Positions 7,195-32,095 of a stretch of 64,000 nucleotides of DNA are shown here, piece after piece. The DNA is from Hamadaea tsunoensis DSM 44101 (lineage in GTDB: Bacteria > Actinomycetota > Actinomycetes > Mycobacteriales > Micromonosporaceae), in NCBI RefSeq assembly GCF_000428945.1, contig NZ_AUAX01000025.1, positions 1-64,000 on the forward strand. The letters are read 5' to 3'. The notes beneath the pieces were generated by a model, which saw nothing but the letters and a program-made list of their open reading frames with translations, had not been told where the DNA came from and made no database searches. The stretch's first letter is position 1, and each line of letters opens with the position of its first letter. A program made the position numbers and the translations under genes.

Positions 7195-7277
7195 CCAAGA
7201 TCCCGTTTGGATCAGGGAAATCACCCGAATCATGGCCCAAGATTCGGGTGAAAACCGTGATCCAAACCAGATCTTGG
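7195..7277. repeat. Interspersed palindromic repeat, copy 1
   Basis: An 83-bp nested palindrome. The outer arm beginning CCAAGATC (7195-7214) pairs with the arm ending AGATCTTGG (7258-7277) with two mismatches. An inner arm CACCCGAATC pairs with GATTCGGGTG around ATGGCCCAA. It lies in the intergenic region between the divergent small gene and the TerC-like gene, 24 bases before the latter. Four relatives occur at 16.1, 19.2, 26.1 and 32.0 kb. Confidence 0.9.
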
Positions 7278-7301
7278 CGGATCAAAAGGTACATTCTCGA
7301 C

Positions 7302-8051
7302 ATGGAGCTGATCATCGGTTTTCTGGGGCTCCTCGCCCTGGAGATCGTGCTCGGCATCGACAACATCGTCTTCATCTCGGTGCTCTCCGCGAAGCTGCCC
7401 CTCGACCAGCGCGACCGCGCCCGCAAGCTCGGCATCGGACTGGCGCTGATCTCGAGGCTGGCCCTGCTGGGCGCGATCTCCTGGGTCGTACGCCTCACCG
7501 AGCCGCTGTTCGCCGTGGCGGGACGCGAGTTCTCCGGACAGGATCTCGTGCTCATCTTCGGCGGCCTGTTCCTGCTGGCCAAGAGCACCTACGAGATCCA
7601 CGACAGCCTGGAGGGCGAGGAGGGCCACGCCAACGGGCGTACCGGCGTCACGTTCGGCGGCGTCCTCGTGCAGATCATGCTGCTCGACGTCGTCTTCTCG
7701 CTGGACTCGATCATCACGGCCGTCGGCATGGTCTCCGAGGTCTGGGTGATGGCGGCGGCGATCGTCGTCTCGGTGATCATCATGCTGGTCGCGTCCGGGC
7801 CGATCTCGGCGTTCGTGCACCGCCATCCGAGCATCAAGATGCTCGCGCTGTCGTTCCTGCTGCTCATCGGCCTGACACTGCTGCTCGACGGGTTCCACCT
7901 GAAGATCCCGAAGGGCTACATCTACTTCGCGATGGGCTTCTCGCTGCTGGTCGAGATCCTCAACCTGCGCGTACGCGCGAAACGCCGGGCAAAGCCGGTC
8001 GAACTGCATGAACGGGTCACGGGGGAGAGCCCCGAAGGGCAGGATGACTGA
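7302..8051 (+). CDS. TerC family integral membrane protein
   Basis: A 249-residue TerC/YoaE-type membrane protein with about seven hydrophobic segments. The family's acidic membrane motifs are visible: EIVLGIDNIVFI near residue 12 and DVVFSLDSIITA near residue 128. Members are linked to metal-ion efflux, manganese handling or metalation of exported proteins; the precise substrate here cannot be read from sequence. There is no clear ribosome-binding site before ATG 7302, which stands just after the palindromic repeat. The following small gene overlaps its end, so the two are probably co-transcribed. Confidence 0.85.
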   Translation: MELIIGFLGLLALEIVLGIDNIVFISVLSAKLPLDQRDRARKLGIGLALISRLALLGAISWVVRLTEPLFAVAGREFSGQDLVLIFGGLFLLAKSTYEIHDSLEGEEGHANGRTGVTFGGVLVQIMLLDVVFSLDSIITAVGMVSEVWVMAAAIVVSVIIMLVASGPISAFVHRHPSIKMLALSFLLLIGLTLLLDGFHLKIPKGYIYFAMGFSLLVEILNLRVRAKRRAKPVELHERVTGESPEGQDD

Positions 8052-8457
8052 TGTGACCGATTACACCGACGAGGAACGCAAGACGCTGCGCGACGCCGCC
8101 TTCGGCGCGATGATGCTCGTCTCGGCGTCCGATCCCGGGTTCTTCGCGATGTTCAAGGAGAGCATGGCCGGCGCCAAGGCGCTCGCGGCCGCGCCGCCCG
8201 ACCTGCAGGGCCTGTTCAAGGGCGGCGGCATGCCCGGTATGCCGAAGGGCTCGATGCAGGAGGTCGAGGCGAACGTGCTCGGCCAGGTCGGGCAGGCGAT
8301 CGGCATCCTGCAGGCCAAGGCGCCGCAGGACGTGGACGCGTACCGGTCGGTGCTGGCGGCCGCCTGCGACCAGGTCGCGAGCGCCTCCGAAGGGGTCAAG
8401 GACACGGAGGCGGCGGCCATCGCCAAGGTCAAGACCGCGGCCGGCATCGTGTCGTAG
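8044..8457 (+). CDS. Small conserved protein of unknown function
   Basis: A 137-residue soluble protein, helix-rich, with a Gly/Met-rich loop (GGGMPGMPKG) in its middle and the segment ASDPGFFAMFKESM near the start. I recognise similar small proteins in other actinobacteria but no function. The start could be ATG 8044, overlapping the TerC gene by eight bases, or GTG 8053 just after its stop; either implies translational coupling to TerC, suggesting a partner role (inference). Confidence 0.65.
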   Translation: MTDVTDYTDEERKTLRDAAFGAMMLVSASDPGFFAMFKESMAGAKALAAAPPDLQGLFKGGGMPGMPKGSMQEVEANVLGQVGQAIGILQAKAPQDVDAYRSVLAAACDQVASASEGVKDTEAAAIAKVKTAAGIVS

Positions 8458-8477
8458 GAACGCCCTAATGTGAGCGC

Positions 8478-11903: not shown

Positions 11904-14900
11904 ATGAGATCCACCCCTCTGCGATCCCTCTCTCCTTCCGGCAGACCCGCCCGCGCCGCGGCCGCCCTCGTGGTGGTCGCCGCCGTCCTGACCCCCGGTA
12001 CGCCGGCCGCCTCCGCCACCCCGGCCGCCGAGCGCCACGTGATCGTCATGCTGGCCCCGGACGGGACGGCCGCCGCCCCGAACAGCCGCTCGGCCGCCGA
12101 CAGCCTGCGCGGCAACCGCCGGGCTCGCCAGGCGGACGTGCTGGCCGCCGGCCGGAAGAACGGCCTGCACATCGGACACGAGCGCGGGTTCGCCCTGGCC
12201 GTGGACGCGGTGGCGCTGACCGTGCCGGACACCGAGGTCGACCGCCTGCGCGGCCTGCCCGGCGTGGCCGCGGTCTACCCCGACGCGCCGGTACGCGCGG
12301 CGACCGACGTCAGCGTCCCGCTCATCGGCGCGCCCGAGGTCTGGCAGCGGCAGGACGCCGCCGGTGCCCACGTGACCGGCAAGGGCGTGACCGTCGCGGT
12401 CATCGACACCGGTGTGGACTACACGCATCCGGATCTCGGCGCCGGCTTCGGTGCGGGACACAAGGTCGTCGGCGGCTACGACTTCGTCAACGACGACGCC
12501 GATCCGATGGACGACAACGGCCACGGTACGCACGTCGCCGGCATCATCGGCGCAAAAGCGTCTGCGCAGGACGGCATCACCGGCGTCGCGCCGGACGTGT
12601 CGCTGCTCGCGTACAAGGTGATGAACGAGAACGGCGAGGGGGACACCTCGGACATCCTCGCGGCCATCGACGCCGCGATCGACCCGGCGAACCCGCATCG
12701 CGCCGACGTCATCAACATGAGCCTGGGCGGGCCGGGCGACGGGACGGACCCGTTGAGCCAGGCCGCGAACGCCGCCAGCGCGGCCGGTGTCGTGGTGGTC
12801 GCGTCGGCGGGCAACGACGGCCCCGGCACGGGCACCGTCAGCGCGCCGGGAGCGGCCGACGACGTGATCACGGTCGGCGCCTCGACGAGCGGCCGGGTCG
12901 ACCCCGTCGCGTACGCGCGGACGGCCACGGGCAAGCCGATCACGCTGCAGACCTATCGCGGGCAGCTGTCGGCGAACGCCCCGGCCGGCGGCGTCACCGC
13001 GCCGGTGGTGTCGATCGGCTACGGCAGCCCGGAGGAGGTGGCCGCGGCCGGTGACCTGCACGGCAGGATCGCCATGCTGACCGGCTACATCGCGCCCGGC
13101 CTGGACACCCTGTCGCAGAGCGATGTCGACCTCGCCCAGGATCTGGAGAGCCGGGGCGCGGTCGCCCTCCTCGGCGGTGCTCCCGGGGGCGGCGGGCCGG
13201 TCCTGGCCGCCACCGCGAACGGGGAGCGGGCCAGCGCCCGGACCGCGGTGCGATCCGGTGATCTGTACAGAATGGACAGTCTCGTCGTCCTCGGCGTGGA
13301 CGACACCCAGTTCGACGAGCTGACGCGGCTGAGCGCCGACCCGGCGCTGCGCGTACGGATCGAGGGGGTCGACCGCACCGACGACATCGCGTCGTTCTCC
13401 TCGCGCGGGCCGACCGGTCGCTTCACCCTCAAGCCCGACCTGGTCGCGCCCGGCGTCGACATCAAGTCGACCGTGCCGACCAGCCTGTTCGCGCCCGGCC
13501 AGTACCGGCTCTCGGGCACCTCCATGGCCGCGCCGCACGTCGCCGGGGCCGCCGCGCTCCTGCGGCAGCTGCACCCGGGCGAGGCGCCCGCGCTGGTCAA
13601 GTCCGCGCTGGTCGGCACGGCGAAGACGGTCGACGGCTCGCAGACCGATCGCGGTTCGGGCCGGCTCGACGTCGCGGCCGCCGCGCGCGCAGTGGTCACC
13701 GCCGTACCCGCCTCGGTCTCCTTCGGCCTCGCCGATCTCGGCGGGTCGACCGTGGGCGGCACACGCTCGGTCACGCTCACGAACGACTCCGCCCGCGCCG
13801 TCTCCGCCGACCTGCGGGCCGGCGGCGCGGCCACGGTCAAGCCCGGCCACGTGAGCATCCCGGCCCGCGGCTCGGTCCGGGTCACCGTCTCGTTGCGTAC
13901 CAAGACGCCCACCGAGTACGCCGAGATCAGCGGACTGATCACCGTCACGCCCGCCCAGGGTCCGGCCGTCCGGGTGCCCTACCTGCTCGTCGCCAGCCCG
14001 CTCGTGGTGCAGTCGACGCCGAACCCGAGCGACGGGCACACGACGGTGTGGGTGATCGCTCCGACAGCGCTCACGGCCGCCCCGGTCGTCACCGTCAAGC
14101 CGCAGCACGGCCGGCCGTTCACCGTGACCCCGACCGCTCAGGGCGGCACCGCGTACGCGGCGGAGCTGACCGTCGGCGCGGCCGGCTCGTACGCGGTGGA
14201 CGTGCGTGGCCGGACGCCCGCGGGCACGCTGCTGACCGGAGCGGGCCGGTTCGACGTGACCCCGGTCGACGTCCGCAACAACCGCTGGGAGCCCGTCGGT
14301 CCGATCGGGGCCGGCGGCGCGCTCACGACCGGGCCCAGCCAGGCCGGGCAGGGCGTCATGCTGACCGACTACACGGCCGGCCCGTTCGTCACCGCCGACC
14401 AGGGGCGGACGTGGACCCAGCTGAACCGGCTGCCCGTCGCGGCCGCGGCCGGTCTCGGCACGGTCGTCATCGACCACAACGACCCGGCCCGCTGGTGGTA
14501 CGCCGTCAACGACCCGTACACGGGCGGGCGGATCCTGCGTACCGACGACGGCGGCCGGACCTGGCGGCCACTGGACCTGCCGCGGGACTACATCGCGACG
14601 CTGGTGGCCGACACGCGTACCCGGGTGTTGGCGGCGGTGACGTCGGCGGGCCTGGAGGTGAGCACGGACGGCGGCGACACGTGGCGCCTGCGGGCGACCG
14701 GCGTGCCGGACGACGTCTACGGCGCCGCCATCGGCGGTGACGACCTGTACCTGCGCGGCGCGAGCCAGGTCTGGAAGCTGCCCGGGATCGTGACCGGCAC
14801 GCCCGGCGCGCCGCAGGCGGCCTACGACAGCGACGGCCACTTCATCTACGACCTGGTGGCCGACGACGGGGTCGTCGCGGCGCTGGTCGGGCAGGTCGGC

Positions 14901-16043
14901 GTGGTCGGCTCGCACGGCGGCGCGTGGTCGACGCTGAAGGACCTCCCGTTCGGGGCGTCCACCCTGCGGATCAGCGGCGGCACCCTGTTCGTCGGCACCT
15001 ACTCCGGCACCGGGTACGCCGGCGCGAACGAAGGTCGTGAGTGGACGGAGCGCGCCCTGCCCTCGTCGGCCGCGGTCTTCTACGACTACGACCGGTACGC
15101 CGACGGCACCGAGGCCGTCACCATGACCAACGGCGTCTTCGGCGCGGACGGCGTACGCCACGGTGTGCAGGGCCTCACCGCCCACGACCTGGCCGTCTCC
15201 GGCGACTCGCTGCTGGCGGCCACCGGCAGCGGCGTCTACCGGACGCGGGTGCCGGCGGCGTCCCCGGAGTGGGGGGCGGCCGAGGGCGAGGGCTGGATCG
15301 GGCTCGGTGCCCAGTTCCTTTCCGTTGTGGGGCAGCAGACCTGGCGCGTACGCCCGGGAGCGTTCGACGAGTTCTTCGTCGACCGCTCGGACGACGGCGG
15401 CGTGACGTGGAACCAGATCGGCCACAGCGGCGAGAAGGCGACCGCGCTCTTCGTCGATCCACGCGACCCGCGGCACATCGTCGCCGGGTTCGAGCGGCTG
15501 TCCGGCATCGGCTTGGCGACCACCACCGACGGCGGTGCGACCTGGAAGAACCTCTACCAGAACACCGTCTTCACGGCGATCGCGGCCGACCCGCACGACG
15601 CGAAGCGGATGTGGCTGGGCTCGCCCGACGGCCTCTACCGGACCGACGACGGCGGCGTGACCGTCACTTTGGTCCTGTCCGGCCCGGTCAGCGCCCTGTA
15701 CGCCGACAGTGCCCGGATCGTCGCGGGCGGCACCGAGATCCGCTACAGCACCGACGGCGGGCGTACCTTCCGGACCGGTGACTCCGGGGCGGGTCAGGTG
15801 TGGGTCTCGGACGTCATCCGCTCCGGCACCACCCTGTACGCGGCCACGCACGCGTTCGGCGCGTACGGGTTCCCACAGGGCGGACGGGGCGTCCTGCGGA
15901 GCACTGACGGCGGCCGGAGCTGGGAGAACATCTCGGCCGGGCTGCAGAACCCGGACGCCACCTCGCTCGCGGCGAGTCCCGACGGAAAGTGGTTGTTCGT
16001 CGGCACCGAGAACGGCGGTGTCCACCGGACGGCCATCCGGTAG
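11904..16043 (+). CDS. Secreted subtilisin-like serine protease with BNR-type propeller
   Basis: A 1379-residue secreted protease. A signal peptide (after Arg-rich start, ending near ASATPA) is followed by an I9-like propeptide and an S8 domain. The catalytic triad is Asp168 (IDTGVDYTHPD), His207 (GHGTHVAG) and Ser540 (GTSMAAPH). The long gap between His and Ser suggests an inserted protease-associated domain near residues 340-450. An immunoglobulin-like segment follows, then the C-terminal half has repeated Asp-box/BNR-type motifs such as TDDGGRTW, STDGGDTW, TTDGGATW and STDGGRSW, indicating a beta-propeller. The start is ATG 11904; TTG 11898 is possible but less likely. It is divergent from the TrmB/LuxR regulator and ends before palindromic repeat copy 2. 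Confidence 0.9.
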   Translation: MRSTPLRSLSPSGRPARAAAALVVVAAVLTPGTPAASATPAAERHVIVMLAPDGTAAAPNSRSAADSLRGNRRARQADVLAAGRKNGLHIGHERGFALAVDAVALTVPDTEVDRLRGLPGVAAVYPDAPVRAATDVSVPLIGAPEVWQRQDAAGAHVTGKGVTVAVIDTGVDYTHPDLGAGFGAGHKVVGGYDFVNDDADPMDDNGHGTHVAGIIGAKASAQDGITGVAPDVSLLAYKVMNENGEGDTSDILAAIDAAIDPANPHRADVINMSLGGPGDGTDPLSQAANAASAAGVVVVASAGNDGPGTGTVSAPGAADDVITVGASTSGRVDPVAYARTATGKPITLQTYRGQLSANAPAGGVTAPVVSIGYGSPEEVAAAGDLHGRIAMLTGYIAPGLDTLSQSDVDLAQDLESRGAVALLGGAPGGGGPVLAATANGERASARTAVRSGDLYRMDSLVVLGVDDTQFDELTRLSADPALRVRIEGVDRTDDIASFSSRGPTGRFTLKPDLVAPGVDIKSTVPTSLFAPGQYRLSGTSMAAPHVAGAAALLRQLHPGEAPALVKSALVGTAKTVDGSQTDRGSGRLDVAAAARAVVTAVPASVSFGLADLGGSTVGGTRSVTLTNDSARAVSADLRAGGAATVKPGHVSIPARGSVRVTVSLRTKTPTEYAEISGLITVTPAQGPAVRVPYLLVASPLVVQSTPNPSDGHTTVWVIAPTALTAAPVVTVKPQHGRPFTVTPTAQGGTAYAAELTVGAAGSYAVDVRGRTPAGTLLTGAGRFDVTPVDVRNNRWEPVGPIGAGGALTTGPSQAGQGVMLTDYTAGPFVTADQGRTWTQLNRLPVAAAAGLGTVVIDHNDPARWWYAVNDPYTGGRILRTDDGGRTWRPLDLPRDYIATLVADTRTRVLAAVTSAGLEVSTDGGDTWRLRATGVPDDVYGAAIGGDDLYLRGASQVWKLPGIVTGTPGAPQAAYDSDGHFIYDLVADDGVVAALVGQVGVVGSHGGAWSTLKDLPFGASTLRISGGTLFVGTYSGTGYAGANEGREWTERALPSSAAVFYDYDRYADGTEAVTMTNGVFGADGVRHGVQGLTAHDLAVSGDSLLAATGSGVYRTRVPAASPEWGAAEGEGWIGLGAQFLSVVGQQTWRVRPGAFDEFFVDRSDDGGVTWNQIGHSGEKATALFVDPRDPRHIVAGFERLSGIGLATTTDGGATWKNLYQNTVFTAIAADPHDAKRMWLGSPDGLYRTDDGGVTVTLVLSGPVSALYADSARIVAGGTEIRYSTDGGRTFRTGDSGAGQVWVSDVIRSGTTLYAATHAFGAYGFPQGGRGVLRSTDGGRSWENISAGLQNPDATSLAASPDGKWLFVGTENGGVHRTAIR

Positions 16044-16080
16044 CCCGCACTTCTCGGGCCCGGTCCGCGGGCTCGCTCTT

Positions 16081-16155
16081 GATCCCGTTTGGATCAGGGA
16101 TTCGCACGTAATCTTGGACCAAGATTCGGGTGATTTCCCTGATCCAAACGGGATC
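16081..16155. repeat. Interspersed palindromic repeat, copy 2
   Basis: The arm GATCCCGTTTGGATCAGGGA (16081-16100) pairs perfectly over 20 bp with 16136-16155. The core differs from copy 1 (CGTAATCTTGGACCAAGATT). It sits between convergent genes, 37 bases after the subtilase stop, where it could also serve as a terminator. Confidence 0.9.
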
Positions 16156-16181
16156 TTCGCGTTGCGGGATCTTCGCGTTGC
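16150..16181. repeat. Perfect 16-bp tandem duplication
   Basis: GGGATCTTCGCGTTGC occurs twice head to tail at 16150-16165 and 16166-16181. The first unit includes the end of palindromic repeat copy 2, so the duplication arose at the edge of that repeat. Confidence 0.85.
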
Positions 16182-16203
16182 GGGGTTATGGGGCTTCGGG
16201 CTG

Positions 16204-16599: not shown

Positions 16600-16609
16600 A
16601 CGGCCGATA

Positions 16610-19099: not shown

Positions 19100-19161
19100 G
19101 CCCTCACCCTGCCACCCGCTCCCGACGTTTCCACCTGCTTTTCCGCCCGCCCGGCCTGCCT

Positions 19162-19236
19162 GATCCCGTTTGGATCAGGGAAATCACCCGAATCATGGCC
19201 CAAGATTCGGGGGAAAACCGTGATCCAAACCGGATC
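19162..19236. repeat. Interspersed palindromic repeat, copy 3
   Basis: The arm GATCCCGTTTGGATCA (19162-19177) pairs with 19221-19236 with one mismatch. The core (CACCCGAATCATGGCCCAAG) is identical to copy 1. It lies in the divergent gap between the acetyltransferase and the beta-helix protein. Confidence 0.9.
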
Positions 19237-19255
19237 TTGGGGGCGGCGCGCGGGG

Positions 19256-19499: not shown

Positions 19500-19505
19500 C
19501 ACTAC

Positions 19506-22269: not shown

Positions 22270-22306
22270 ACCGGTAGATCCGTACCACCCGCTCCCACGA
22301 AACAAG

Positions 22307-22437: not shown

Positions 22438-23643
22438 GTGGTGAGGCGTGTGGCGACCGTGGTTCTGGCCCTGCTGTGGGCCGGCTCCGTCGCGGCCCTC
22501 GCCACCGGCACCGTCGCCCGCCGGCCCGCCCTGCTCGCTCTGGCCGGCACGTCGCTGCTGCTCGTCGTGCTGGGCATGGTCGCCGTCCGGCGCCGTCGCG
22601 TACCACCGCCGCCGCCCGCCGTCGTGCGCGCCGGCGATCGGGTGGTCGGCCTCCCGCCGCGCGATCCGCACTTCGCCGGCCGCGAAGACCTGCTCGCCGC
22701 GCCGCCCAAGGTGATCACCGGGCCGCCGGGCAGCGGCACGTCCTCACTTGCCTTCGAGTACGCGTACCGGAGCGCTCACGAGTTCCAGTTCGTCGGTGTG
22801 CTGCACGCGTCCCGCCCGGAACTGCTCCCCGACCAGTACGCGAAACTGGCCGTGGCGCTCGGCGTACCGGCCGACGGTGTCGTGGCGGCGCTGGCGGACC
22901 ATCGACCGTGGCTGCTGATCTTCGACGACGCGGGCGGCCCGGCCGACATCGAGCACCTGCTACCGCCCGGCGGCCGGATCATCGTGACGTCGTCCGCGCC
23001 GGGCTGGAACGCGTACACCCTGGGTGGCTTGGAAGAACCGGCGGACTTCCTGCGCAGGCGCGCGGACCTCAGCCGCAAGGAAGCCGGGGCGCTGGCCGAG
23101 ACGGTGGGTGACCTGCCGCTGGCGCTGGAGCTCGCGGGCGCGTATCTCGCCGAGACCCGCGCGGACCCGCACGCCTACCTGGTACGCCTGCAGACGCTGC
23201 TCGTACGCGTTCCCGGCAACATCATGCTCGCGCTGTGGAGCCTGTCGGCGCAGCACCTGCGGGCGACGGCGCCGGACGCCTACCGGGCCCTGGAGATGTG
23301 GTCCTTCCTCGGCCCCGAACCGATCCCGCTGGCGGTGTTCGGCGACCTGGACCCGGACCCGGCCGTACGCCTCGGCCTGGCCCGCACCGACGGCGTGACC
23401 GTGACCGTCCACCCGCTCATCCAGTCCCTGGTACGCACCGCCCCCGACGTCCGCCGCCGCGAAAGCGCGACCTCGGCGGCGACGGCGTTGCGGGCCCACC
23501 TCACGGACGCCGCGGACGAGGTGTGGCGATCGGTGCTGCCGCACGTGCTGGCGGTTGTCGGAAGACCGGAGGTGGCGGGGGACCGCACGGTGTCGTGGCT
23601 CCTGCACCACGTCGAATTCCTGCGCGGCGACTCCGTGAGCTGA
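22438..23643 (+). CDS. Membrane-anchored NB-ARC-like protein with degenerate P-loop
   Basis: A 401-residue protein with two hydrophobic helices in residues 5-50, then an NB-ARC-like STAND nucleotide-binding region. The introductory motif is FAGREDLL. Walker A reads GPPGSGTSS, so the lysine that normally binds phosphate is a threonine. Walker B reads PWLLIFDDAGG, and a later GDLPLALELAGAYLAE matches the GxP motif. The usual C-terminal repeat sensor (TPR or WD40) is missing, and the protein ends soon after the winged-helix-like region. It may be inactive in ATP hydrolysis or a regulatory relic. The start is GTG 22438 or 22441. No obvious partner gene adjoins it. Confidence 0.65.
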   Translation: MVRRVATVVLALLWAGSVAALATGTVARRPALLALAGTSLLLVVLGMVAVRRRRVPPPPPAVVRAGDRVVGLPPRDPHFAGREDLLAAPPKVITGPPGSGTSSLAFEYAYRSAHEFQFVGVLHASRPELLPDQYAKLAVALGVPADGVVAALADHRPWLLIFDDAGGPADIEHLLPPGGRIIVTSSAPGWNAYTLGGLEEPADFLRRRADLSRKEAGALAETVGDLPLALELAGAYLAETRADPHAYLVRLQTLLVRVPGNIMLALWSLSAQHLRATAPDAYRALEMWSFLGPEPIPLAVFGDLDPDPAVRLGLARTDGVTVTVHPLIQSLVRTAPDVRRRESATSAATALRAHLTDAADEVWRSVLPHVLAVVGRPEVAGDRTVSWLLHHVEFLRGDSVS

Positions 23644-23644
23644 C

Positions 23645-23674
23645 CGGGCGGGAGGACGGCCGTCTCCCCGCCCG
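23645..23674. terminator. Hairpin between convergent genes
   Basis: CGGGCGGGAGGACGG (23645-23659) pairs with 23660-23674 with two mismatches. It lies between the NB-ARC-like gene and the convergent GH16 gene and can serve both. Confidence 0.55.
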
Positions 23675-23686
23675 ATCAACGCATCA

Positions 23687-24943
23687 TCAGGCCGGCAGGC
23701 TCCACTTCTGGTTGGCGCTGCCCGCGCACGCCCAGATCTGCAGCTGCGTACCGTCCGCCGAACTGGGGCCCGCGGCGTCGAGGCACTTGGCCGACTGCGG
23801 GTTGTAGTACTCGTTGATGCTCGTGTGCTGCCACACTTGCGCGCCGCTGCCGTTACAGTCCCACAGCTGCACCTTCGTCCCGTTCGCCGTGCCACCCGAG
23901 GCCACGTCCAGGCACTTCCCGAGTACGCGCAGGTTGCCGCCGCTGAACGTGAAGCTCTGAGCGGCGGTGCCGTTGCAGGTCCACAGCTGCGCCTTGGCTC
24001 CGTTGGCGGTGCTGGCCCCCGAGATGTCGACGCACTTGCCGCCGTACCCGGTGATCGCGTGGCCGCCCGTGCCGCCGCCGGTGTCCCAGCCGTACACGTG
24101 GACGTAGTCGACGGTCATCGTCTGCGGGAACGTCGTCGACCCGTTGGGCGAACCGGGCCAGTTACCGCCGACCGCCACGTTGAGCAGCATGAAGAACGGG
24201 TGGTCGAACACCCACTGGTTGCCGTTCGCGTCCGCGGGCGTACGCCGGCCGTACTGGATGCCGTCGATGTAGAACGTGATCGAGTCCGGCGCCCAGTCGA
24301 CGGCGTACGTGTGGAACCCGTCCGCCAGGGCCGCCCCGTTCGGCAGCGTGTACGCCTGCCCCAGCCCACAGCAGCCCGAGTAGCCGGGCCCGTGCAGGGT
24401 GCCGTGGACGGTGCCCGGCTCGTTGCCGACGTTCTCCATGATGTCGACCTCGCCGGACTGCGGCCAGCCGACGCTGCCGATGTTGTCGCCGAGCATCCAG
24501 AAGGCCGGCCACAGCCCCTGCCCGCGCGGAATCTTGATACGCGACTCGAACCGGCCGTACGTCTGCGTGAACTTGCCCTGCGTCTTCAACCGGGCCGACG
24601 TGTACTGACACGACCCGTACCAGCACGAATAGCCGCTGGGGTTGCCCGCGCGGGCGGTGATGACCAGATTGCCGCTGCCGTCGAGCGCGGCGTTGCTCGT
24701 GCTGGTGGTGTAGTACTCCAGCTCGTTGTTGCCCCAGCCGCCGCCACCGGTCTCGTACGCCCACTTCGACCCGTCGGGCGCCGAACCGGCCGCCCCGTTG
24801 AAGTCGTCGGACCAGGTCAGCCCGCCGACCGCGGCGAAGGCCGGCGTACTCGTGGGGGTGGTGAGGAGGGTCGCCACGAGCAAGGGCGCGGCGGCGAGGA
24901 AGAGTGCCTTGCGGCGCAGGGTTTTCAGCTCTTTCAGGGGCAT
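23687..24943 (-). CDS. Secreted GH16 endo-beta-glucanase with ricin-type lectin domain
   Basis: A 418-residue secreted enzyme. The signal peptide ends near TPAFAAVG. The GH16 catalytic domain spans about residues 40-285; its nucleophile and acid/base glutamates are in GEVDIMENVG, followed by WPAFWMLG upstream and HPFFMLLNVAVGGNWPG downstream. This motif with the extra Met is typical of laminarinase-type endo-1,3-beta-glucanases. A C-terminal beta-trefoil (CBM13/ricin-type) has three QxW-like repeats: AQLWTC, VQLWDC and LQIWAC. The likely substrate is beta-1,3-glucan of fungi or plants. ATG 24943 follows GGGAG. A good promoter lies at 25012-25041. Confidence 0.92.
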   Translation of the reverse strand: MPLKELKTLRRKALFLAAAPLLVATLLTTPTSTPAFAAVGGLTWSDDFNGAAGSAPDGSKWAYETGGGGWGNNELEYYTTSTSNAALDGSGNLVITARAGNPSGYSCWYGSCQYTSARLKTQGKFTQTYGRFESRIKIPRGQGLWPAFWMLGDNIGSVGWPQSGEVDIMENVGNEPGTVHGTLHGPGYSGCCGLGQAYTLPNGAALADGFHTYAVDWAPDSITFYIDGIQYGRRTPADANGNQWVFDHPFFMLLNVAVGGNWPGSPNGSTTFPQTMTVDYVHVYGWDTGGGTGGHAITGYGGKCVDISGASTANGAKAQLWTCNGTAAQSFTFSGGNLRVLGKCLDVASGGTANGTKVQLWDCNGSGAQVWQHTSINEYYNPQSAKCLDAAGPSSADGTQLQIWACAGSANQKWSLPA

Positions 24944-25011
24944 GGGCGGAAGCTCCCTTCGTGATGATCGCGGCCCGGGGGTCATGAGGGCGGGTGGGCC
25001 GGATCGATCGA

Positions 25012-25041
25012 AGGTTATGCCTCTGTAAATACTGTTGTCAA
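25012..25041 (-). promoter_or_regulatory. Sigma-70-type promoter of the GH16 gene
   Basis: On the minus strand TTGACA (25041-25036) is followed after 18 bases by TAACCT (25017-25012), about 70 bases before the GH16 start. The -35 box is a perfect consensus match and the -10 is fair. Confidence 0.55.
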
Positions 25042-25097
25042 TTCAAGCCGTGAAGTAAGGAGATGCCGCTGGGGGCATGCTCCGGCACAATGCCTTC

Positions 25098-25638
25098 ATG
25101 ATCCGCTACGGCATCCAGGACTACGAACCACGCTGGCTCAACGGCGTCGATGCCGTCAGACAGGAGCACGGCGAGCGACTGGCGGCCCTCGTCACACGGA
25201 CGCTCCGCCACGTCTGGGCGGTGTGGGATCTGGCGGACGACTCCTGGTTCGTGGACGCGCCGGTGCTGATGGACTTCGGATCCGAGCAGGTCGAGATCGA
25301 CCACCAGAAGTTGGACGACCTCTCCATCACCTGGAACACGATCGACCCCGCCCGCGCTATGGAGGATTCGTGGGACAACCTGACCTGGCGGCCCGCGCCC
25401 TTCCCTGAAGTCGAGGACCTGTGCGGTCGCCCGCTTCGTGCGGTCGAGCTGCTGGAATGGGTGGCTGATCGGCGCGATTTCGCGTACGGCAGCGTCGCTG
25501 TGGGATTCGACTTAGCGGCCGCGCTGGCTGACGATCTACAACGCCCTCGACGAGAACGGCTTCCAGTATCACGTGCCCGGCCCGGAATACCGTCGTCACC
25601 CCGTCGAGGCGGGTGGGGCACCTCGGCGCACTTCCTGA
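25098..25638 (+). pseudogene. Frameshifted hypothetical gene
   Basis: The reading frame from ATG 25098 (MIRYGIQDYEPRWLNG) has good codon usage until about 25515-25523, where coding character moves to the +1 frame. In that frame the text continues as RWLTIYNALDENGFQYHVPG and stops at TGA 25638, giving a protein of about 180 residues. The break falls in a GCGGCCGCG run, so a one-base insertion (or sequencing error) is likely. Reading on in the first frame would run through the rnpB gene, which is not plausible. The intact product is an acidic soluble protein of unknown function, possibly of the SMI1/immunity-like kind, but I cannot show that. Confidence 0.65.
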
Positions 25639-25652
25639 AAACCGTGGGGCGG

Positions 25653-26038
<386 letters not shown>

Positions 26039-26113
26039 CGCAGGTCAAGCTTAGCAGTCCATGATCAATTATGACGCGGGCCACCCCGCCGCCGGCGCCC
26101 GCCGGTGGGACCG

Positions 26114-26194
26114 CAAGATCCCGCTTGGATCAGGGAAAACCACGTAATCATGGCCCAAGATTCGGGTGATATCCCTGATCCAAGCGGGATCTTG
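26114..26194. repeat. Interspersed palindromic repeat, copy 4
   Basis: The 23-bp arm beginning CAAGATCCCGCTTGG (26114-26136) pairs perfectly with 26172-26194. Relative to copies 1-3 both arms carry the same compensated change (GTTTGG to GCTTGG with CCAAAC to CCAAGC). An extra fragment of the right arm, CCAAGCGGGATCTTGGG, follows at 26207-26223. It lies between rnpB and a divergent membrane-protein gene. Confidence 0.9.
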
Positions 26195-26262
26195 GGCGGG
26201 CCGCCGCCAAGCGGGATCTTGGGGGCGCCCGGCGGGGGAGATATACGGGTTACGATATGGGC

Positions 26263-27306
26263 ATGTCTACAGTGGTCAAGGACCGCGACCACGTCGCCGT
26301 CGCCGCTCTCAGCCTGATCACCGTCGGCGGCGTCTACCTCGACGGCTGGGCGCACGTGAACGTACGCGGGCTGGAGACCTTCTTCACCCCCTGGCATGCC
26401 GTGTTGTACTCCGGTTTCGTCGTGACCGCGGCGTACCTGGTGGTGTTGGGGGTTCGGCTCGGCGGCCGGGCGGGCGGGCCGCAGGCCTGGTGGCACGCGT
26501 TGCCGAAGGCGTACAAGGTGGGGTTGGCGGGGGTCGCGACGTTCGCCGTCGGGGGCGCCGGGGACATGTTGTGGCATACCCTCTTCGGTGTCGAGAAGGG
26601 CGTCGACGCGCTGCTCAGCCCCACGCATCTGGTGCTGCTCGTGGGCGGGATGCTGCTGTTCTCGTCGGCCGGTGTCGCGGCCGCGCGGGTGAACGGGTCG
26701 CGGGTCGCGATCGCGCTGTCGGCCGCCGCCGTGGGTGCCGCGGCCGCGTTCTTCATGAGCTACCTCGACGTCTTCCGGCAGCCGTGGGCACGCCTGCCGT
26801 TCGTGCCCAACACCGACGACACGTACGTCATCTTCGGGGTGGGCGGTTACCTGCTCGACACCGCCGCGATCCTCGTTCCCATCCTGCTCATGCGCCGCCA
26901 TCTGCCCCGGCCGCCGCGCGGCGCATTGTCCGTCGTCGTCTTCGCGGTCGCCGTCGGCGGTGGAGCCAACAGCGAGTACGCGTACCCGGCGCCCATCGTC
27001 GGTGCGGTCGTCGGTGCCGTGGTGGCCGACGTTCTGCTCGGGATCGTGCCGTGGCGGCGGGACCCGTGGCTGCTGTTCGGCTTCGCGGCACCCGTGTTCG
27101 TCTGGTCCGGGCAACTGCTGGGGACCGCGTACGCGAATGGCATGGGTTGGACCAGGGAATTGTGGGCCGGTGTGGTGGTGCTCTGCGCGCTGGGCGGATG
27201 GGCGCTCGCGGCCGTGAGCCGGCCGGCCGAGCCTCCGGTGGCGCGTGACGGCGGCGAACCGCGGGGCGGTGCCGAGCAGCGGGAGAGCGCCACAATGGCG
27301 GGGTGA
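26263..27306 (+). CDS. Polytopic membrane protein of unknown function
   Basis: A 347-residue protein with about eight to nine hydrophobic segments, several of them rich in Gly, Ala and Val. Histidines and acidic residues occur near membrane segments (DGWAHVN, TPWHAVLYS, GDMLWHTLFG), a pattern that hints at metal or haem binding but is not diagnostic. I do not recognise the family. ATG 26263 is seven bases after a -10-like TACGAT (26251-26256), so the mRNA may be leaderless; ATG 26257 is the alternative. Its stop overlaps the GTG of the sigma-factor gene by four bases, so the two are coupled, although functional linkage is unclear. Confidence 0.7.
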   Translation: MSTVVKDRDHVAVAALSLITVGGVYLDGWAHVNVRGLETFFTPWHAVLYSGFVVTAAYLVVLGVRLGGRAGGPQAWWHALPKAYKVGLAGVATFAVGGAGDMLWHTLFGVEKGVDALLSPTHLVLLVGGMLLFSSAGVAAARVNGSRVAIALSAAAVGAAAAFFMSYLDVFRQPWARLPFVPNTDDTYVIFGVGGYLLDTAAILVPILLMRRHLPRPPRGALSVVVFAVAVGGGANSEYAYPAPIVGAVVGAVVADVLLGIVPWRRDPWLLFGFAAPVFVWSGQLLGTAYANGMGWTRELWAGVVVLCALGGWALAAVSRPAEPPVARDGGEPRGGAEQRESATMAG

Positions 27307-28499
27307 GAGAGCTGGCGGAAGCGTGGCGGCGCGACGCGGCGGGGCTGCGGGCGACGCTCGCGCGGCGGCTCGGTGACCTGGACCTGGCCGAGGAGGCGCT
27401 GGCGGACGTGGCGGCGAAGGCCGCGGCGACGTGGCCGCACGACGGTGTGCCGGACAATCCGGCGGGCTGGCTGATGACCGCGGCATGGCACCGCGCGCTG
27501 GACATCCTGCGGCGGGAACGGACGGGGCGGGAGAAACTGGCGCGGCTCGCGCAGGAGCCCGCGCCGTCGGCGACGGTGCCGGACGACCGGCTGGCGCTCG
27601 TGTTCGCGTGCTGCCATCCGGCGCTGGCCGAGCCGCTGCAGGTCGCGTTGACGCTGAACGCGGTGGCGGACCTGACCGCCGAGGAGATCGGCGCGGCGTT
27701 CCTGGTGCCCACCGCGACCATGGCCCAGCGGCTCGTCCGCGCGAAGCACCGCCTGCGGCGCGAAGGCGTACGGTTCGCGGCGCCGGAGCCGGAGGAGTTG
27801 CCGCAGCGGCTGAACGCGGTCCTCGCCGTCGTGTACGCCGTCTTCAACGAGGGCTACCTGACGACCTCCACGGACCGTCCGCAGCGCCGGGAACTGGCCG
27901 GCGAGGCGCGTGATCTGGCCGCCGAACTCGCCGAGCTGATGCCGGGCGAGGCCGAGGTGGTCGGGCTGTCGGTGCTCATCGAGGTGCACGAGGCGCGCAG
28001 TGCGCAGCGCTTCGATCGCGCGGGTCGCCTCGTGCTATTGGAAGAGCAGGATCGGCGCGGCTGGGACCACGGGCGCATCCGCGAGGCGGAGCGGCGGCTG
28101 GAACGCGTACTGCGCAAGGGAACGCCGGGGCCGTATCAGACCCAGGCCGCGATCGCCGTGCTGCACGCGACCGCGGCCGACGTCGAGACGACGGACTGGC
28201 CGCAGATCCGGGCGTTGCACGACATCTGGTACGCGCAGACCGGAAATCCGGTGGTGTTGCTGAACAGAGCGGTCGCGACGTGGCGCGCGAACTCGGCCAC
28301 CGTGGCGCTCGAAGAGGTGGACGCCCTGGCCGATCGGCTGGGCGCGTACCGGCTGTTCCATGCGACGCGGGGTGAACTGCTACGAGCCGTGGGCCGTGAC
28401 GAGGAATCCCGGGCGGCGGTCGGCCGGGCGCTCGCGCTCGCGACCAACAGCGCCGAACGGGAACTCCTCGCTCGCAGGCTCGCCGGGACCGGCGCCTGA
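27303..28499 (+). CDS. ECF42-type RNA polymerase sigma factor
   Basis: A 398-residue extracytoplasmic-function sigma factor. Sigma region 2 spans about residues 10-80 (LAEEALADVAAKAAATWP, GWLMTAAWHRALDILRR) and region 4 about 105-160 (LTAEEIGAAFLVPTATMAQR). A long C-terminal extension with TPR-like helices (NRAVATWRANSATVALEEVD) is characteristic of the ECF42 group. In that group the gene is typically next to a YCII/DGPF-domain protein, and one is present here at 28532-28882, although convergent. No anti-sigma factor is adjacent, as expected for ECF42. The start is GTG 27303, overlapping the preceding stop. Confidence 0.9.
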   Translation: MRELAEAWRRDAAGLRATLARRLGDLDLAEEALADVAAKAAATWPHDGVPDNPAGWLMTAAWHRALDILRRERTGREKLARLAQEPAPSATVPDDRLALVFACCHPALAEPLQVALTLNAVADLTAEEIGAAFLVPTATMAQRLVRAKHRLRREGVRFAAPEPEELPQRLNAVLAVVYAVFNEGYLTTSTDRPQRRELAGEARDLAAELAELMPGEAEVVGLSVLIEVHEARSAQRFDRAGRLVLLEEQDRRGWDHGRIREAERRLERVLRKGTPGPYQTQAAIAVLHATAADVETTDWPQIRALHDIWYAQTGNPVVLLNRAVATWRANSATVALEEVDALADRLGAYRLFHATRGELLRAVGRDEESRAAVGRALALATNSAERELLARRLAGTGA

Positions 28500-28531
28500 A
28501 ACACCGGGCCCGGCAGGAAAGAAAGCCGTGG

Positions 28532-28882
28532 TCAGTGCGGGATGACCGGGCGTACCTCGACCGACTCGCCGTACTTGATGCCCGGCCATTCCGACGCCAC
28601 CGCCACCGCCTCGTCGATGTCGTCCGCCTCGAGGATGAGGAAGCCGGCGAGGAACTCCTTCAGCTCCATGTAGGGGCCGTCCACCACGGTGACGCCGTTG
28701 TCGGTGCGGCGTACCGTCTTCGCCGTGCCCGGCAGGTCGAGTTCGGCCCCGCCGTCCACGACCTTCCCGGCCTTCTCCCATTTGGCGAGGTACGCCCAGA
28801 TCTCGTCGTACCCCTCCTTCTGCGCTTCCGGGGTCGTGCCGTGCCAGGCACCCTGCCAGCAGATCAGCATCACGTACTTCAC
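28532..28882 (-). CDS. YCII/DGPF-domain protein, ECF42 partner
   Basis: A 116-residue YCII-related protein of the DGPF type. The core KYVMLICWQGAWHG opens the domain, and the signature DGPYMELKEFLAGF is near residue 70, followed by ADDIDEAVAVASEWP. Such proteins accompany ECF42 sigma factors and may sense or process a small molecule for them; the chemistry is unknown. GTG 28882 is chosen as the start because AAGGGAGA lies just upstream and the domain begins at once. It converges with the sigma factor gene with a 32-base gap. Confidence 0.85.
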   Translation of the reverse strand: MKYVMLICWQGAWHGTTPEAQKEGYDEIWAYLAKWEKAGKVVDGGAELDLPGTAKTVRRTDNGVTVVDGPYMELKEFLAGFLILEADDIDEAVAVASEWPGIKYGESVEVRPVIPH

Positions 28883-29145
28883 AACTGTCTCCCTTGTCGA
28901 CGTTCCGGCCCGCGATCGCCGCCGGCTCAAGCGCTTTTCCAGAGTGACGATTGGCGCGTACGTCGAATCGACAGTCCGTCCACGATGACCGCTCGAAGAA
29001 TTTATGACTTCAATTTCTCGCGAAATGCGCGCACATGGGTAATTTGCGATGCATAGTGACGTTGAGCAACATCGGTCCGATACCGAAGTTGCGCGACGTC
29101 CGCATCGGGCGAGGGCCTGTCGGACACATCCGTGAGGAGGAGACG
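28883..29145. other. Intergenic region before the histone-like gene
   Basis: About 260 bases without a supported gene. The middle is AT-richer than its surroundings (near 29000-29050), as expected for divergent promoters of the YCII gene and the histone-like gene. A strong ribosome-binding site, GAGGAGGAGA, ends at 29143. I see no riboswitch-like structure. Confidence 0.5.
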
Positions 29146-29832
29146 ATGGCCGAAGGTACCAAGGCCACCCGACCGGCGGCGAAGAAGACCACCGCTGCCC
29201 GGAAGACGGCGGCGAAGAAGGCTCCGGCGGGCCGCACGATGACCGCGGCCAAGAAGACGGCTGCCAAGAAGGCCGCCGCGAAGAAGACGACGGCGAAGAA
29301 GGCGACCGCCAAGAAGACCACCGCCAAGAAGACGGTGGCGGCGAAGAAGACCACGGCCGCGGCGAAGACGACGGCTCGGAAGGTCACGACGGCCAAGGCG
29401 ACCCCCGCTCGCAAGACCGCGGCGAAGAAGGCCACGACGCGTACGGCGGCCAAGAAGACGGCGCCGGCGAAGAAGACGACGGCCAAGAAGGCCCCCGCCA
29501 CCAGGACGGCGGCGAAGAAGACGACCGCCAAGAAGGCGGCCGCCAAGAAGACCACGGCGGCGAAGAAGACGACCGCCAAGAAGACCACCGCCAAGAAGAC
29601 GGTGGCGGCCAAGAAGACCACGGCGCGCAAGGTCACCACCGCCAAGGCGACGCCGGCGAAGAAGACGGCGGCGAAGAAGACCGCCGCCAAGAAGGTCGGC
29701 GCGACGAAGGCCACCGCCGCGAAGAAGGCGGTCGCCAAGAAGGCCCCGGCAGCGCGCAAGACCGCGGCGAAGAAGGCGCCGGCCCGCAAGACGGCCACGC
29801 GCACGATGGCCAAGGCCACCTCGCGGATGTAG
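29146..29832 (+). CDS. Histone H1-like Lys/Ala-rich protein
   Basis: A 228-residue protein made almost entirely of Lys, Ala, Thr and Arg in repeats such as AAKKTTAKK and KKTAAKKA. It resembles eukaryotic linker-histone tails and the C-terminal tail of mycobacterial-type HupB, but it has no HU fold in front; the repeats begin within the first ten residues. It should bind DNA or RNA by charge and act in nucleoid compaction or ribosome-related binding (inference). ATG 29146 has a very good ribosome-binding site, GAGGAGGAGA. Internal repetition (29300-29420 resembles 29570-29680) suggests growth by duplication and possible length variation between strains. Confidence 0.85.
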   Translation: MAEGTKATRPAAKKTTAARKTAAKKAPAGRTMTAAKKTAAKKAAAKKTTAKKATAKKTTAKKTVAAKKTTAAAKTTARKVTTAKATPARKTAAKKATTRTAAKKTAPAKKTTAKKAPATRTAAKKTTAKKAAAKKTTAAKKTTAKKTTAKKTVAAKKTTARKVTTAKATPAKKTAAKKTAAKKVGATKATAAKKAVAKKAPAARKTAAKKAPARKTATRTMAKATSRM

Positions 29833-29898
29833 ACCCGCTACAGCAATCCGACAGCGTGTGCGGACGCGTCGGGTGCCCGGCACTGGTAGGAATGTGCC

Positions 29899-31284
29899 GT
29901 GGTCACCCGACGCGTTTTCGCATCCGCCCTGGACTTCTCCGCGCTGCGCGCGGAACTGCATCTGCCCGCCGACTTCCCGGCCGACGCGCAGGCGCAGGCC
30001 GAGGCGAGCGCCCGTAACCCGGTGCTGCCCGATCTCGACCGCACCGACATACCCTTCGTCACCATCGACCCGCCCGGCTCCAAGGACCTCGACCAGGCCG
30101 TCTGCCTGGAACGCCGGGACGGCGGCTACCGCGTCTACTACGCCATCGCCGACGTCTACGCGGCCGTCCCGGCGGACGGCCCGCTGGAGGCCGAGACGTG
30201 GCGCCGCGGCCAGACCGTCTACCTGCCCGACGGCAACGTCCCGCTGCACCCGGTCGAGCTCAGTGAAGGCGCCGCGAGCCTGCTGCCCGACCAGGTCCGC
30301 GCGGCGGTCCTGTGGACGATCGACGTCACCCCGCAAGGCGACACCCAGGCTGTACGCGTCGAGCGCGCCCGGGTACGCAGCCGGGCGCAGCTGGCTTATC
30401 CCGGCGTACAGGCGGATTGTGATCGAGGCGCGCTGCCGGACGCCATCGCGTTGCTGCCGGAGATCGGGCGCCTGCTCGTGGAGCGCGGCCTGGACCGGGG
30501 CGCGATCAACCTGCCCATGCCGGAGCAGGACGTGGAGGAGACGGCGGACGGCTGGGAGCTGACGCTGCGCGCGCCGCTGCCGGTGGAGGAGTGGAACGCG
30601 CAGATCTCGCTGCTGACCGGCGTGGCCGCGGCGAAGATCATGCTGGCCGGGGGAGTGGGGCTGCTGCGCACGATGCCCGCGCCCTCGCTGGAGGCGATCG
30701 AGAAGCTGAAGGTGGCCGCGGCGGGTCTGGGCATCGAGTGGCCGGCGGGCAAGAGCGTGGGCCGCGTGATCGCGGGCCTGGACCCGCAGAATCCGCGGGC
30801 CGCCGCGTTCATCGACCACACCGCGGACACGCTGCGCGGCGCCGGGTACACGGCGTTCGACGGCACGCCGCCCGAGCAGTCGGAGCACGGCGGCGTCGCG
30901 GCCACGTACGCGCACGTCACGGCCCCGCTGCGCCGCCTGGCCGACCGGTACGCGACCGAGGCGGCCCTCGCCCTGTTCGCCGGGCGGCCCGTTCCCGCGC
31001 ACGTCCGCGAGTCGCTGCCCAAGCTGCCCGAAGTGATGGCGGAGACCGGCCGGGTGGCGAACGCCGCCGACCGGGGCGCGATCGACCTGGCCGAGGCCGT
31101 GCTGCTGGAGAAGCGGATCGGCGAGGTCTTCCCGGCCGCCGTGATCGACGAATCGCAGATCGCCCTGGATTCCCCGCCCGTACGCGCGAAGTGCGCGGGC
31201 GACCTGAAGCCCGGCGACCGGATCCAGGCGAAGCTGACCGAGGCCGATCCCGTCAAGCGGCGTGTGAGGTTCGCCCTGGCCTGA
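29899..31284 (+). CDS. RNB-domain ribonuclease (RNase II/R family)
   Basis: A 461-residue 3'-5' exoribonuclease of the RNase II/R family. The RNB catalytic block starts with DRTDIPFVTIDPPGSKDLDQ near residue 45, which contains the metal-binding aspartates, and continues with YYAIADVYAAV. There are few flanking domains: no N-terminal cold-shock domains are visible and only a short S1-like tail is possible, so it is a compact version compared with E. coli RNase R (about 810 residues). It would degrade structured or unstructured RNA. The start is GTG 29899. The gene lies 35 bases before npdG and may be co-transcribed. Confidence 0.85.
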   Translation: MVTRRVFASALDFSALRAELHLPADFPADAQAQAEASARNPVLPDLDRTDIPFVTIDPPGSKDLDQAVCLERRDGGYRVYYAIADVYAAVPADGPLEAETWRRGQTVYLPDGNVPLHPVELSEGAASLLPDQVRAAVLWTIDVTPQGDTQAVRVERARVRSRAQLAYPGVQADCDRGALPDAIALLPEIGRLLVERGLDRGAINLPMPEQDVEETADGWELTLRAPLPVEEWNAQISLLTGVAAAKIMLAGGVGLLRTMPAPSLEAIEKLKVAAAGLGIEWPAGKSVGRVIAGLDPQNPRAAAFIDHTADTLRGAGYTAFDGTPPEQSEHGGVAATYAHVTAPLRRLADRYATEAALALFAGRPVPAHVRESLPKLPEVMAETGRVANAADRGAIDLAEAVLLEKRIGEVFPAAVIDESQIALDSPPVRAKCAGDLKPGDRIQAKLTEADPVKRRVRFALA

Positions 31285-31319
31285 TCAACCACGGGCGACT
31301 CGTCGGTAGGGTTCGAGGC

Positions 31320-31994
31320 ATGGCACTCGACCTCACCAGTCTTCCCGACGTGTCCGGTCTGACCGTCGGCATCCTCGGCGGCACCGGCGACCAGGGGCGG
31401 GGGCTGGCGTACCGGCTGGCCCGCGGCGGCCAGCGGGTCCTCGTCGGCTCCCGGTCGGCCGAGCGCGCGGTCGCGGCCGCCGCCGAGATCGGCCCGTCCG
31501 TCGCCGGCGCGGCCAACGAGGAGGTCGCGGCGGCCAGCGACATCGTGATCGTCGCCGTGCCGTGGGAGGGCCACGGGACGTTGCTGGCATCGCTGCGCGA
31601 CCAGCTCCGGGGCAAGATCGTGGTCGACTGCGTCAACCCGCTCGGCTTCGACAAGCAGGGCCCGTACGCGCTCCCGGTCGAGGAGGGCAGCGCGGCCCAG
31701 CAGGCGGCGGCGGTCCTGCCCGAGTCCCGGGTGTGCGCCGCGTTCCACCACGTCAGCGCGGCGCTGCTGGCGGACCCCGCGGTCGACCGGATCGACCTGG
31801 ACGTCCTGGTGCTCGGCGAGGACCGGGAGGCGGTCGAGGCGGTCCAGGCGCTGGCCGGCCGGATCGACGGCATGCGCGGCGTGTACGCCGGCCGGCTGCG
31901 CAACGCGCACCAGATCGAGGCGTTCACCGCCAATCTGATCGCGATGAACAAGCGCTACAAGGCCCACGCGGGAATCCGCATCACCGACGTGTAG
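31320..31994 (+). CDS. npdG: F420H2:NADP oxidoreductase
   Basis: A 224-residue cytosolic enzyme that transfers hydride between coenzyme F420 and NADP. The N-terminal Rossmann motif is TVGILGGTGDQGRGLAYRLA and is followed by the NADP-selective VGSRSAERA. VAVPWEGH and AFHHVSAALL match the F420-binding side of the family. Presence of this gene implies the host makes F420, as actinobacteria commonly do. ATG 31320 is selected by the position of the Rossmann motif. It follows the RNB nuclease by 35 bases and precedes palindromic repeat copy 5. Confidence 0.88.
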   Translation: MALDLTSLPDVSGLTVGILGGTGDQGRGLAYRLARGGQRVLVGSRSAERAVAAAAEIGPSVAGAANEEVAAASDIVIVAVPWEGHGTLLASLRDQLRGKIVVDCVNPLGFDKQGPYALPVEEGSAAQQAAAVLPESRVCAAFHHVSAALLADPAVDRIDLDVLVLGEDREAVEAVQALAGRIDGMRGVYAGRLRNAHQIEAFTANLIAMNKRYKAHAGIRITDV

Positions 31995-32014
31995 CCGGGC
32001 CCGCCGGCGGCATG

Positions 32015-32095
32015 CATGATCCCGCTTGGATCAGGTTTTCGCACGTAATCATGGCCCATGATTCGGGTGATTTCCCTGATCCAAGCGGGATCATG
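32015..32095. repeat. Interspersed palindromic repeat, copy 5
   Basis: The 21-bp arm beginning CATGATCCCGCTTGG (32015-32035) pairs perfectly with 32075-32095. Compared with copy 4 both arms show CAAG/CTTG changed to CATG/CATG, which keeps pairing. It fills the gap between the convergent npdG and panB genes. Confidence 0.9.

Follow-up and report, generated by a model that had tools for sequence, protein, structure and literature searches.

REPINs, the closest described systems to the element reported here, are inverted pairs of repetitive extragenic palindromic (REP) sequences with conserved ends and a variable middle that fold into a hairpin, commonly with compensatory changes, and REPs are described as targets of insertion sequences (PMC3116915). 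REPs occur mostly between unidirectional and convergent genes, lie in convergent gaps mostly near the 3' end in the two species that are diagrammed, and form two superfamilies tagged GTAG or CGTC (PMC3733652); the tag and a stem bulge are given as recognition features (PMC8266576). Here we describe a family of nested hairpins from the actinomycete Hamadaea tsunoensis DSM 44101, five copies of which lie in the window, a stretch of 64,000 nucleotides at the start of contig NZ_AUAX01000025.1. Like the GI REPINs of Pseudomonas fluorescens and the bacterial interspersed mosaic elements of E. coli as portrayed in these sources (PMC3116915, PMC3733652, PMC8266576), the family joins inverted conserved units across a less conserved middle into one irregular hairpin, has hundreds of extragenic copies in convergent and unidirectional gaps near 3' ends, and shows both compensatory changes and insertion sequences within copies. 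It is a dispersed extragenic palindrome, depleted from divergent gaps. It differs in having no GTAG or CGTC tag at the foot of the palindrome, aligned copies mostly ending CCAWGATC...GATCWTGG, in the lack of a match to the Y1 transposase (REP-associated tyrosine transposase, RAYT, or TnpA-REP) in its own and 8/9 other genomes, and in its actinomycete host; neither PMC3733652 nor PMC8266576 has the word 'Actinobacteria' in its main text. Because neither tag nor transposase was found, we file it as REPIN-like and not as a REPIN. We consider it probable that this is a non-autonomous mobile hairpin family without a RAYT, surviving mainly after stop codons, where a copy would be harmless or useful as a gene end.

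Arm sites with up to three mismatches number 277 forward and 270 reverse across the 9.48-Mb genome, compared with 0+0 for the reversed control, which corresponds to about 270 elements of 81 bp. An earlier note, made from the letters of the window, had proposed a repeat family from five copies; the claim extends to this larger set, and further copies are far from absent genome-wide. Detailed profile counts come from 1.6 Mb (contig C1 whole, parts of C2, C3, C4 and C8, and the window, with the C3 pieces chosen for holding copies), in which a profile built from the five window copies gave 87 merged matches (79 full, 8 partial); a 70-kb stretch of C30 held one further copy, outside these counts. 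The aligned, oriented consensus of 83 columns reads CCAAGATCCCGTTTGGATCAGGGAAATCACCCGAATCTTGGGCCAAGATTACGTG, about 5 variable positions, then CCCTGATCCAAACGGGATCTTGG, and is symmetric, with a 20-bp outer stem, an internal loop, an inner stem and the palindromic centre ATCWTGGNCCAWGAT. Each half opens with CCAWGAT and closes with ATCWTGG, giving an inverted pair of ~40-nt units with a predicted RNA fold of -53 kcal/mol together and about -10 and -13 kcal/mol singly.

The two halves are unequally conserved. One end is within one change of AGGGAAATCACCCGAATC in 71/75 copies, the opposite end is variable, and outer-arm changes number 39 on the variable side and 16 on the A1 side (74 copies, p 0.003, counted over a stretch unused for orienting copies and with the Y position left out). 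One half is thus constant and the other variable, an asymmetry that is not required by a purely structural role and that would be expected if one half is recognised. A more conserved half is also what protein-binding or chromosome-organising sites kept by selection would show (for example, for a nucleoid protein or gyrase), as is a density of 4.7-7.8 full copies per 100 kb in the sampled tiles other than C2. We regard such sites as a most improbable explanation: C2:140001-280000 (140 kb) is devoid of full copies, those in tandem gaps are oriented at random relative to the upstream gene (17 vs 15), sites differ between species, and the dialects of related lineages are too unlike for one site, the GATCAGGG arms excepted. 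The empty C2 stretch itself could belong to a chromosome arm or have been acquired.

In an alignment of 45 rows (44 own-genome copies selected as diverse, plus a single Hamadaea copy), pairing holds in 84.7% of cells, and 13/32 pairs carry changes on both sides (shuffle mean 8.6, 0/500 as high), compared with only 1-6 pairs when the partner is slid by 1-3 columns. Both exchanges that the earlier note had read from the window, GTTTGG/CCAAAC versus GCTTGG/CCAAGC and CAAG/CTTG versus CATG/CATG, are present, and private paired changes occur elsewhere (GTTCGG/CCGAAC at C8:36594; GTTGGG/CCCAAC at C8:114728). Its broader statement, that both arms change together, holds insofar as two-sided changes exceed those of shuffled and slid alignments but not as a strict rule: arms average 2.4 mismatches in 22 versus 2.7 for re-dealt arms (14/2000 shuffles as low; 74 copies with a 75-bp GATC-to-GATC span), only 7/74 copies have mismatch-free 22-nt arms, and the innermost three polymorphic arm positions show 0 symmetric changes versus 1.0, 1.5 and 7.3 expected. 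Another arm count (78 copies, mean 2.9) took in four copies with ends not anchored at the usual span. The Y position has C on both sides in 9 of the 74 copies and unlike sides in 13. The strongest case for structure lies between lineages, where the own-genome stem GTTTGGATCAGGG/CCCTGATCCAAAC and the stem of genus-mates, CGCTGGATCAGGG/CCCTGATCCAGCG, remain paired although they differ from each other on both sides.

Mapped against genes called with a simple custom codon-usage caller, the 79 full copies fall in convergent (38), tandem (34) and divergent (6) gaps, with 1 inside a called gene, whereas the same sample contains 269 convergent, 858 tandem and 267 divergent called gaps. The mapping proposed by the earlier note therefore places 78/79 copies between genes, mostly near stop codons; its description of convergent and divergent gaps fits the window but not the larger sample. 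Divergent placement, seen in 3/5 window copies (before terC, between the GNAT and F5/8 type C genes, and between the RNase P RNA and the next gene; the other 2/5 are convergent), is atypical for the family. Distances to the neighbouring stop codon have a median of 30.5 bp (n=110) and distances to a start a median of 107.5 bp (n=46). Similar placement recurs in relatives, with 9 convergent, 5 tandem, 1 divergent and 1 genic among 16 copies in tiles of the genus-mate G001, and 10 convergent, 4 tandem, 1 divergent and 2 genic among 17 loci from six genomes of five other genera (median stop distance, 22.5 bp). The 20 bp to the left of copies are C-rich (~10 C, 5.5 G) and the 20 bp to the right are G-rich (~9 G, 6 C), in every gene context and without specific flank pairing.

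Positions just past stops, enrichment in convergent gaps and a very stable fold would equally be seen if the copies were bidirectional intrinsic terminators maintained by the cell and shared between loci by gene conversion, the sequence itself not being mobile. Copies resemble intrinsic (Rho-independent) bidirectional terminators in being stable hairpins tens of base pairs past a stop and frequent between convergent genes; they differ in forming a repeated family with lineage dialects and in lacking a T tract after the stem, and a terminator scan of positions 14500-33500 flagged none of copies 2-5. Actinomycete terminators often have no T run. The window copies before terC and beside the RNase P RNA 5' end are not at a 3' end. 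Other hairpins in 34 copy-holding convergent gaps reach -20.4 kcal/mol with the flanks joined and -15.4 kcal/mol with them apart, compared with a stronger -22.9 kcal/mol in 105 copy-free convergent gaps, a difference that fits the mobile REPIN-like reading as well as terminators shared by conversion; the weaker values are partly explained by splitting of the flank.

Orthologous gaps also bear on this alternative. Strict alignment was achieved for 6/88 own-genome matches and 1/16 G001 copies: the six own-genome sites comprise five without a profile-detected copy in G001 and one with a copy in the G001 dialect, and all alignable copies of the genus-mates G002 and G003 (4/4) face a copy-free site in G001. 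Gaps that are mostly copy-free in a relative argue against hairpins maintained in place. On the other side, three gaps hold a copy in the own genome (G000) as well as in G001, the two copies differing in dialect (both flanks place one of these gaps, a single flank the other two), although a few shared gaps are expected by chance because 38/155 convergent gaps longer than 40 bp hold a copy. The copy-5 site holds GC-rich hairpins of other sequence in two Hamadaea relatives, and one of the five 'empty' G001 sites holds a different, GATCAGGG-armed hairpin; both count in favour of the terminator alternative. Taken together, we rate non-mobile terminators shared by gene conversion as unlikely, if still credible. 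Three locus pairs among G001-G003 (from best-scoring lists) lie at a common site. Concerted evolution at fixed orthologous sites does not follow from these comparisons, the shared sites being as few as independent occupancy would give.

A shorter GATCCGCTTGGATCARGGA-type hairpin without the nested core was seen at G003:C12:80691-80743, at G001:C1:708723-708775 and, as one arm, at the end of G002:C66; in G003 and G001 it directly follows a secreted-peptidase-like gene. This single palindrome looked like an ancestral copy but is not proven to be one, as the end of the own-genome ortholog has an unrelated GC-rich hairpin.

Related genomes carry the family in other dialects. For one window protein the nearest matches, at 76 and 75% identity, come from two Hamadaea metagenome genomes (own-genome records possibly omitted), and the profile search found a diverged copy adjoining a panB-like gene in Hamadaea Bin2.24 (E 1e-8). 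The exact own-genome arm is almost absent from the three genus-mates, each of which has >100 copies of its own dialect, GCGCTGGATCAGGG..GTCGAATCTTG..CAAGATTCGAC..CCCTGATCCAGCGC in G001-G003. A covariance model search of relatives, as the earlier note had suggested, used a model (R1) of the 45 aligned rows and listed at least 143 matches in G001, at least 150 in G002, at least 150 in G003 and at least 41 in G012, a genome of another genus, counting both strands and so not giving copy numbers. The Hamadaea row, L122, was found by the profile of own-genome copies, and the success of R1 in G001-G003 is therefore not independent of that row. With the best 56 candidates per genome scored, 9 of 81 genomes had an R1 match at E 0.001 (weak ones: G011 2, G019 8, G040 2, G223 1), and when the best 15 were scored in 300 genomes of the family, matches at E 1e-5 were confined to the four genus genomes, G012 and a single one in G124; zeros can be misses in both searches.

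The arms alone reach further. Across 354 genomes, the pattern GATCAGGGN{16,46}CCCTGATC (reversed control at most 1 per genome) occurs 118, 128, 187 and 185 times in the own genus, 23-99 times in g32 (6/6 genomes), 93 times in G040 (g38), 28 times in G011 (g9), 10 and 20 times in g7 (2/5 genomes) and 9 times in g23 (1/4), with 0-4 elsewhere, some of them ordinary hairpins. Four further genera of the family hold many palindromes with GATCAGGG...CCCTGATC arms; the GATCAGGG arm pattern is missing from G012 (0 matches) despite its R1 matches. Inner sequences are unlike between genera (G097, G011 and G111 rows), while G011 (L229, L235) and G040 (L230) retain CAAGATC ends like those of the own genome, L235 at the left end only. 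A further dialect, GCAGTTTCGGGGAAA...GAATCWTGG...TTTCCCCGAAACTGC, was observed in G019 (g17; L232, L234, L238, L241), with the common AATCWTGG centre and other arms. It is possible, if doubtful, that GATCAGGG-armed nested hairpins form a superfamily, that a non-RAYT enzyme recognising hairpins amplified it independently in five or more genera of a single family, and that its members serve as portable terminators; it would span six genera with G012, which keeps the fold and not the arms, each genus having its own dialect. DNA uptake sequences of Neisseria and Pasteurellaceae, when paired as terminators, likewise combine a short motif, inverted pairs at gene ends and lineage dialects; here the motif sits in a longer nested hairpin.

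The earlier note knew of no described family with this sequence, and none emerged: no Rfam family matched the copies (whole window, gathering threshold), the copy 2 region at E up to 5 gave only a microRNA match (E 0.3) beside the copy, and viral contigs, phages, plasmids and the open-licence literature yielded no match to the element or description of it. Its suggestion of a REP- or MITE-like element divides: the REP likeness stands in anatomy, copy number and position and fails in tag and transposase, and the likeness to a miniature inverted-repeat transposable element (MITE) is weaker. As an internal-deletion derivative of a DDE-type DNA transposon with the arms as terminal inverted repeats, a MITE would account for a short, non-coding element of ~80 bp with terminal inverted repeats and hundreds of dispersed copies, and two long forms of 471 and 634 bp share its ends. 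The family differs in its conserved nested fold, and no autonomous partner transposon with the same ends was seen in 1.6 of 9.48 Mb, nor were further unpaired arm pairs at transposon distance in the same 1.6 Mb. No target-site duplication was found either: for none of the end definitions tried did direct repeats stand clearly above shuffles, the best score being ~2.6 among 729 end-definition tests (40 shuffles each; these and the flank tests used 78 copies, four not anchored at the usual span). Because the inserts of the long forms match a separate repeat family, which in 25/30 fetched loci has no piece of the element beside it, a role for the long forms as the parental transposon is disfavoured, and a MITE origin seems to us distinctly improbable.

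A repeat several hundred base pairs long, with ends like GGCTCTCCGG/CCGGAGAGCC and rich in TTGATCA palindromes, is inserted in copies, with a junction exactly at the palindrome centre (WTGG|GCTC or GAGC|CCAA) at six loci and with other junctions elsewhere (Table 1). A further, mosaic repeat family with motifs such as TTGATCAAGTACCGCTATTACGGCA occurs in ~40 places, of which 30 were fetched (L089-L118); in 25/30 of these, no interrupted piece of the 81-bp element surrounds the repeat. Insertion of the hairpin into the loops of older terminator hairpins was rejected as a general rule, with joined matched flanks at -22.1 kcal/mol and mismatched ones at -22.2 kcal/mol. At the base next to GATC, flanks are more complementary than re-paired ones (z 3.9); over positions 5-16, 84/500 shuffles are as high.

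Under the reading we favour, two inverted ~40-nt units joined at ATCWTGGNCCAWGAT fold as one long hairpin with an outer stem, an internal loop and an inner stem, and the family would be mobile but non-autonomous, multiplying within a genome through recognition of its folded strand. Insertions would survive mainly just 3' of stop codons, where the hairpin may be harmless or may act as a bidirectional transcription terminator or 3'-end stabiliser, a role that copies at gene ends probably have. Lineages of the genus and several other genera would then have amplified their own dialects, keeping the nested hairpin and, G012 excepted, the GATCAGGG/CCCTGATC arms.

Several results weigh against a mobile, REPIN-like family. 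No mobilising enzyme was found and no movement was observed: PF01797 (Y1/RAYT) had 0 matches in the own genome (HUH proteins outside PF01797 were not searched) and 0 in G001, G002 (87% complete), G003, G012, G034, G111, G040 and G097, in a search whose positive controls matched in 5/14 genomes and which gave two partial matches near contig starts in G011. The missing target-site duplication and T tract count here as well, as does the GATCAGGG-armed hairpin at a nominally empty G001 site. Spacers turn over fast even where flanking genes are ~90% identical, so that exact insertion ends are unreadable. Covariation within the G001-G003 dialect is weak (12 two-sided pairs vs 7.5 shuffled, 3/500 as high), and its percentage paired was reached by 37/500 shuffles. 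In G012, 5/7 loci are convergent but stop distances are longer (median, 190 bp). Selection against insertions elsewhere could, moreover, by itself produce the placement beside stop codons.

The spread of REPINs is attributed to RAYTs; here hundreds of REPIN-like copies, at sites that clearly differ between species, occur where no RAYT was found. Either another enzyme can do the spreading, or the copies are long-lived and a RAYT has since been lost. With several amplified lineages that differ in dialect and share an arm motif, comparing which genes are present or absent offers a natural experiment for identifying the enzyme, and the same lineages allow one to ask whether hairpins serve as ready-made gene ends in actinomycetes.

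All five copies were recovered by sequence inspection and the profile search at the coordinates of the earlier note (Table 1), and the search of the 64-kb window added none, including in the stretch from 33 to 64 kb that the note had described as empty. RNA folds of copies 1-5 score z values of -9.8, -9.6, -5.4, -10.5 and -9.4 against dinucleotide shuffles (0/200 folding as well for each copy), and DNA parameters concur.

Table 1. Copies of the nested hairpin in the window and loci of the repeat inserted in copies
Feature	Position	Strand	Form	Setting
Copy 1	7195..7277 (profile search 7196-7276)	+	nested palindrome, A1-type end left	divergent gap: O6-methylguanine methyltransferase gene (-) / terC gene (+, called start 7302)
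Copy 2	16079..16157	-	nested palindrome, A1-type end right	convergent gap: subtilase gene (+, ends 16043) / SnoaL-like gene (-, 16204-16599)
Copy 3	19161..19239	+	nested palindrome, A1-type end left	divergent gap: GNAT gene (-) / F5/8 type C gene (+)
Copy 4	26114..26194	-	nested palindrome, A1-type end right	RNase P RNA 5' end (25653-26033, -) / gene without Pfam match (+, from 26272)
Copy 5	32015..32095	-	nested palindrome, A1-type end right	convergent: F420-type oxidoreductase (+, ends 31994) / ketopantoate hydroxymethyltransferase, panB-like (-, 32106-32951)
Inserted repeat, junction at palindrome centre	C1:202050-202683; L102; L105; L098; C3:493432; C1:264420		C3:493432 and C1:264420 are solo halves	
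Inserted repeat, other junctions	C2:207487-207957; C1:527560			

A weak call of a small open reading frame (ORF; 6961-7143) lies between the O6-methylguanine methyltransferase gene and copy 1. The right end of copy 2 shows a direct repeat of CGGGATCTTCGCGTTG, and copy 4 has a second partial right end, CCAAGCGGGATCTTGG, at 26207-26222. Extra partial arm ends of this kind (CGGGATCWTG or its complement) were seen 14 times within 60 bp outside the element, compared with 0.26 expected, beside 12/78 copies and on the right side in contig orientation in 11/12; those in the window follow copy 4 and, as a variant, copy 2.

Two further features of the window lie apart from the hairpins. The gene at 29146-29832 has a long Lys/Ala repeat tail with 15- and 18-bp periods, which we take to resemble an H1-like or HU-tail protein. 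A tRNA-Gly and a direct repeat of its 3' half ~9.4 kb off (51735-51808, 51764-52108 and 61137-61473) give the 51.8-61.3 kb region the look of an integrated element with attL and attR, the repeat continuing into the 3' end of the adjoining leftward ORF.

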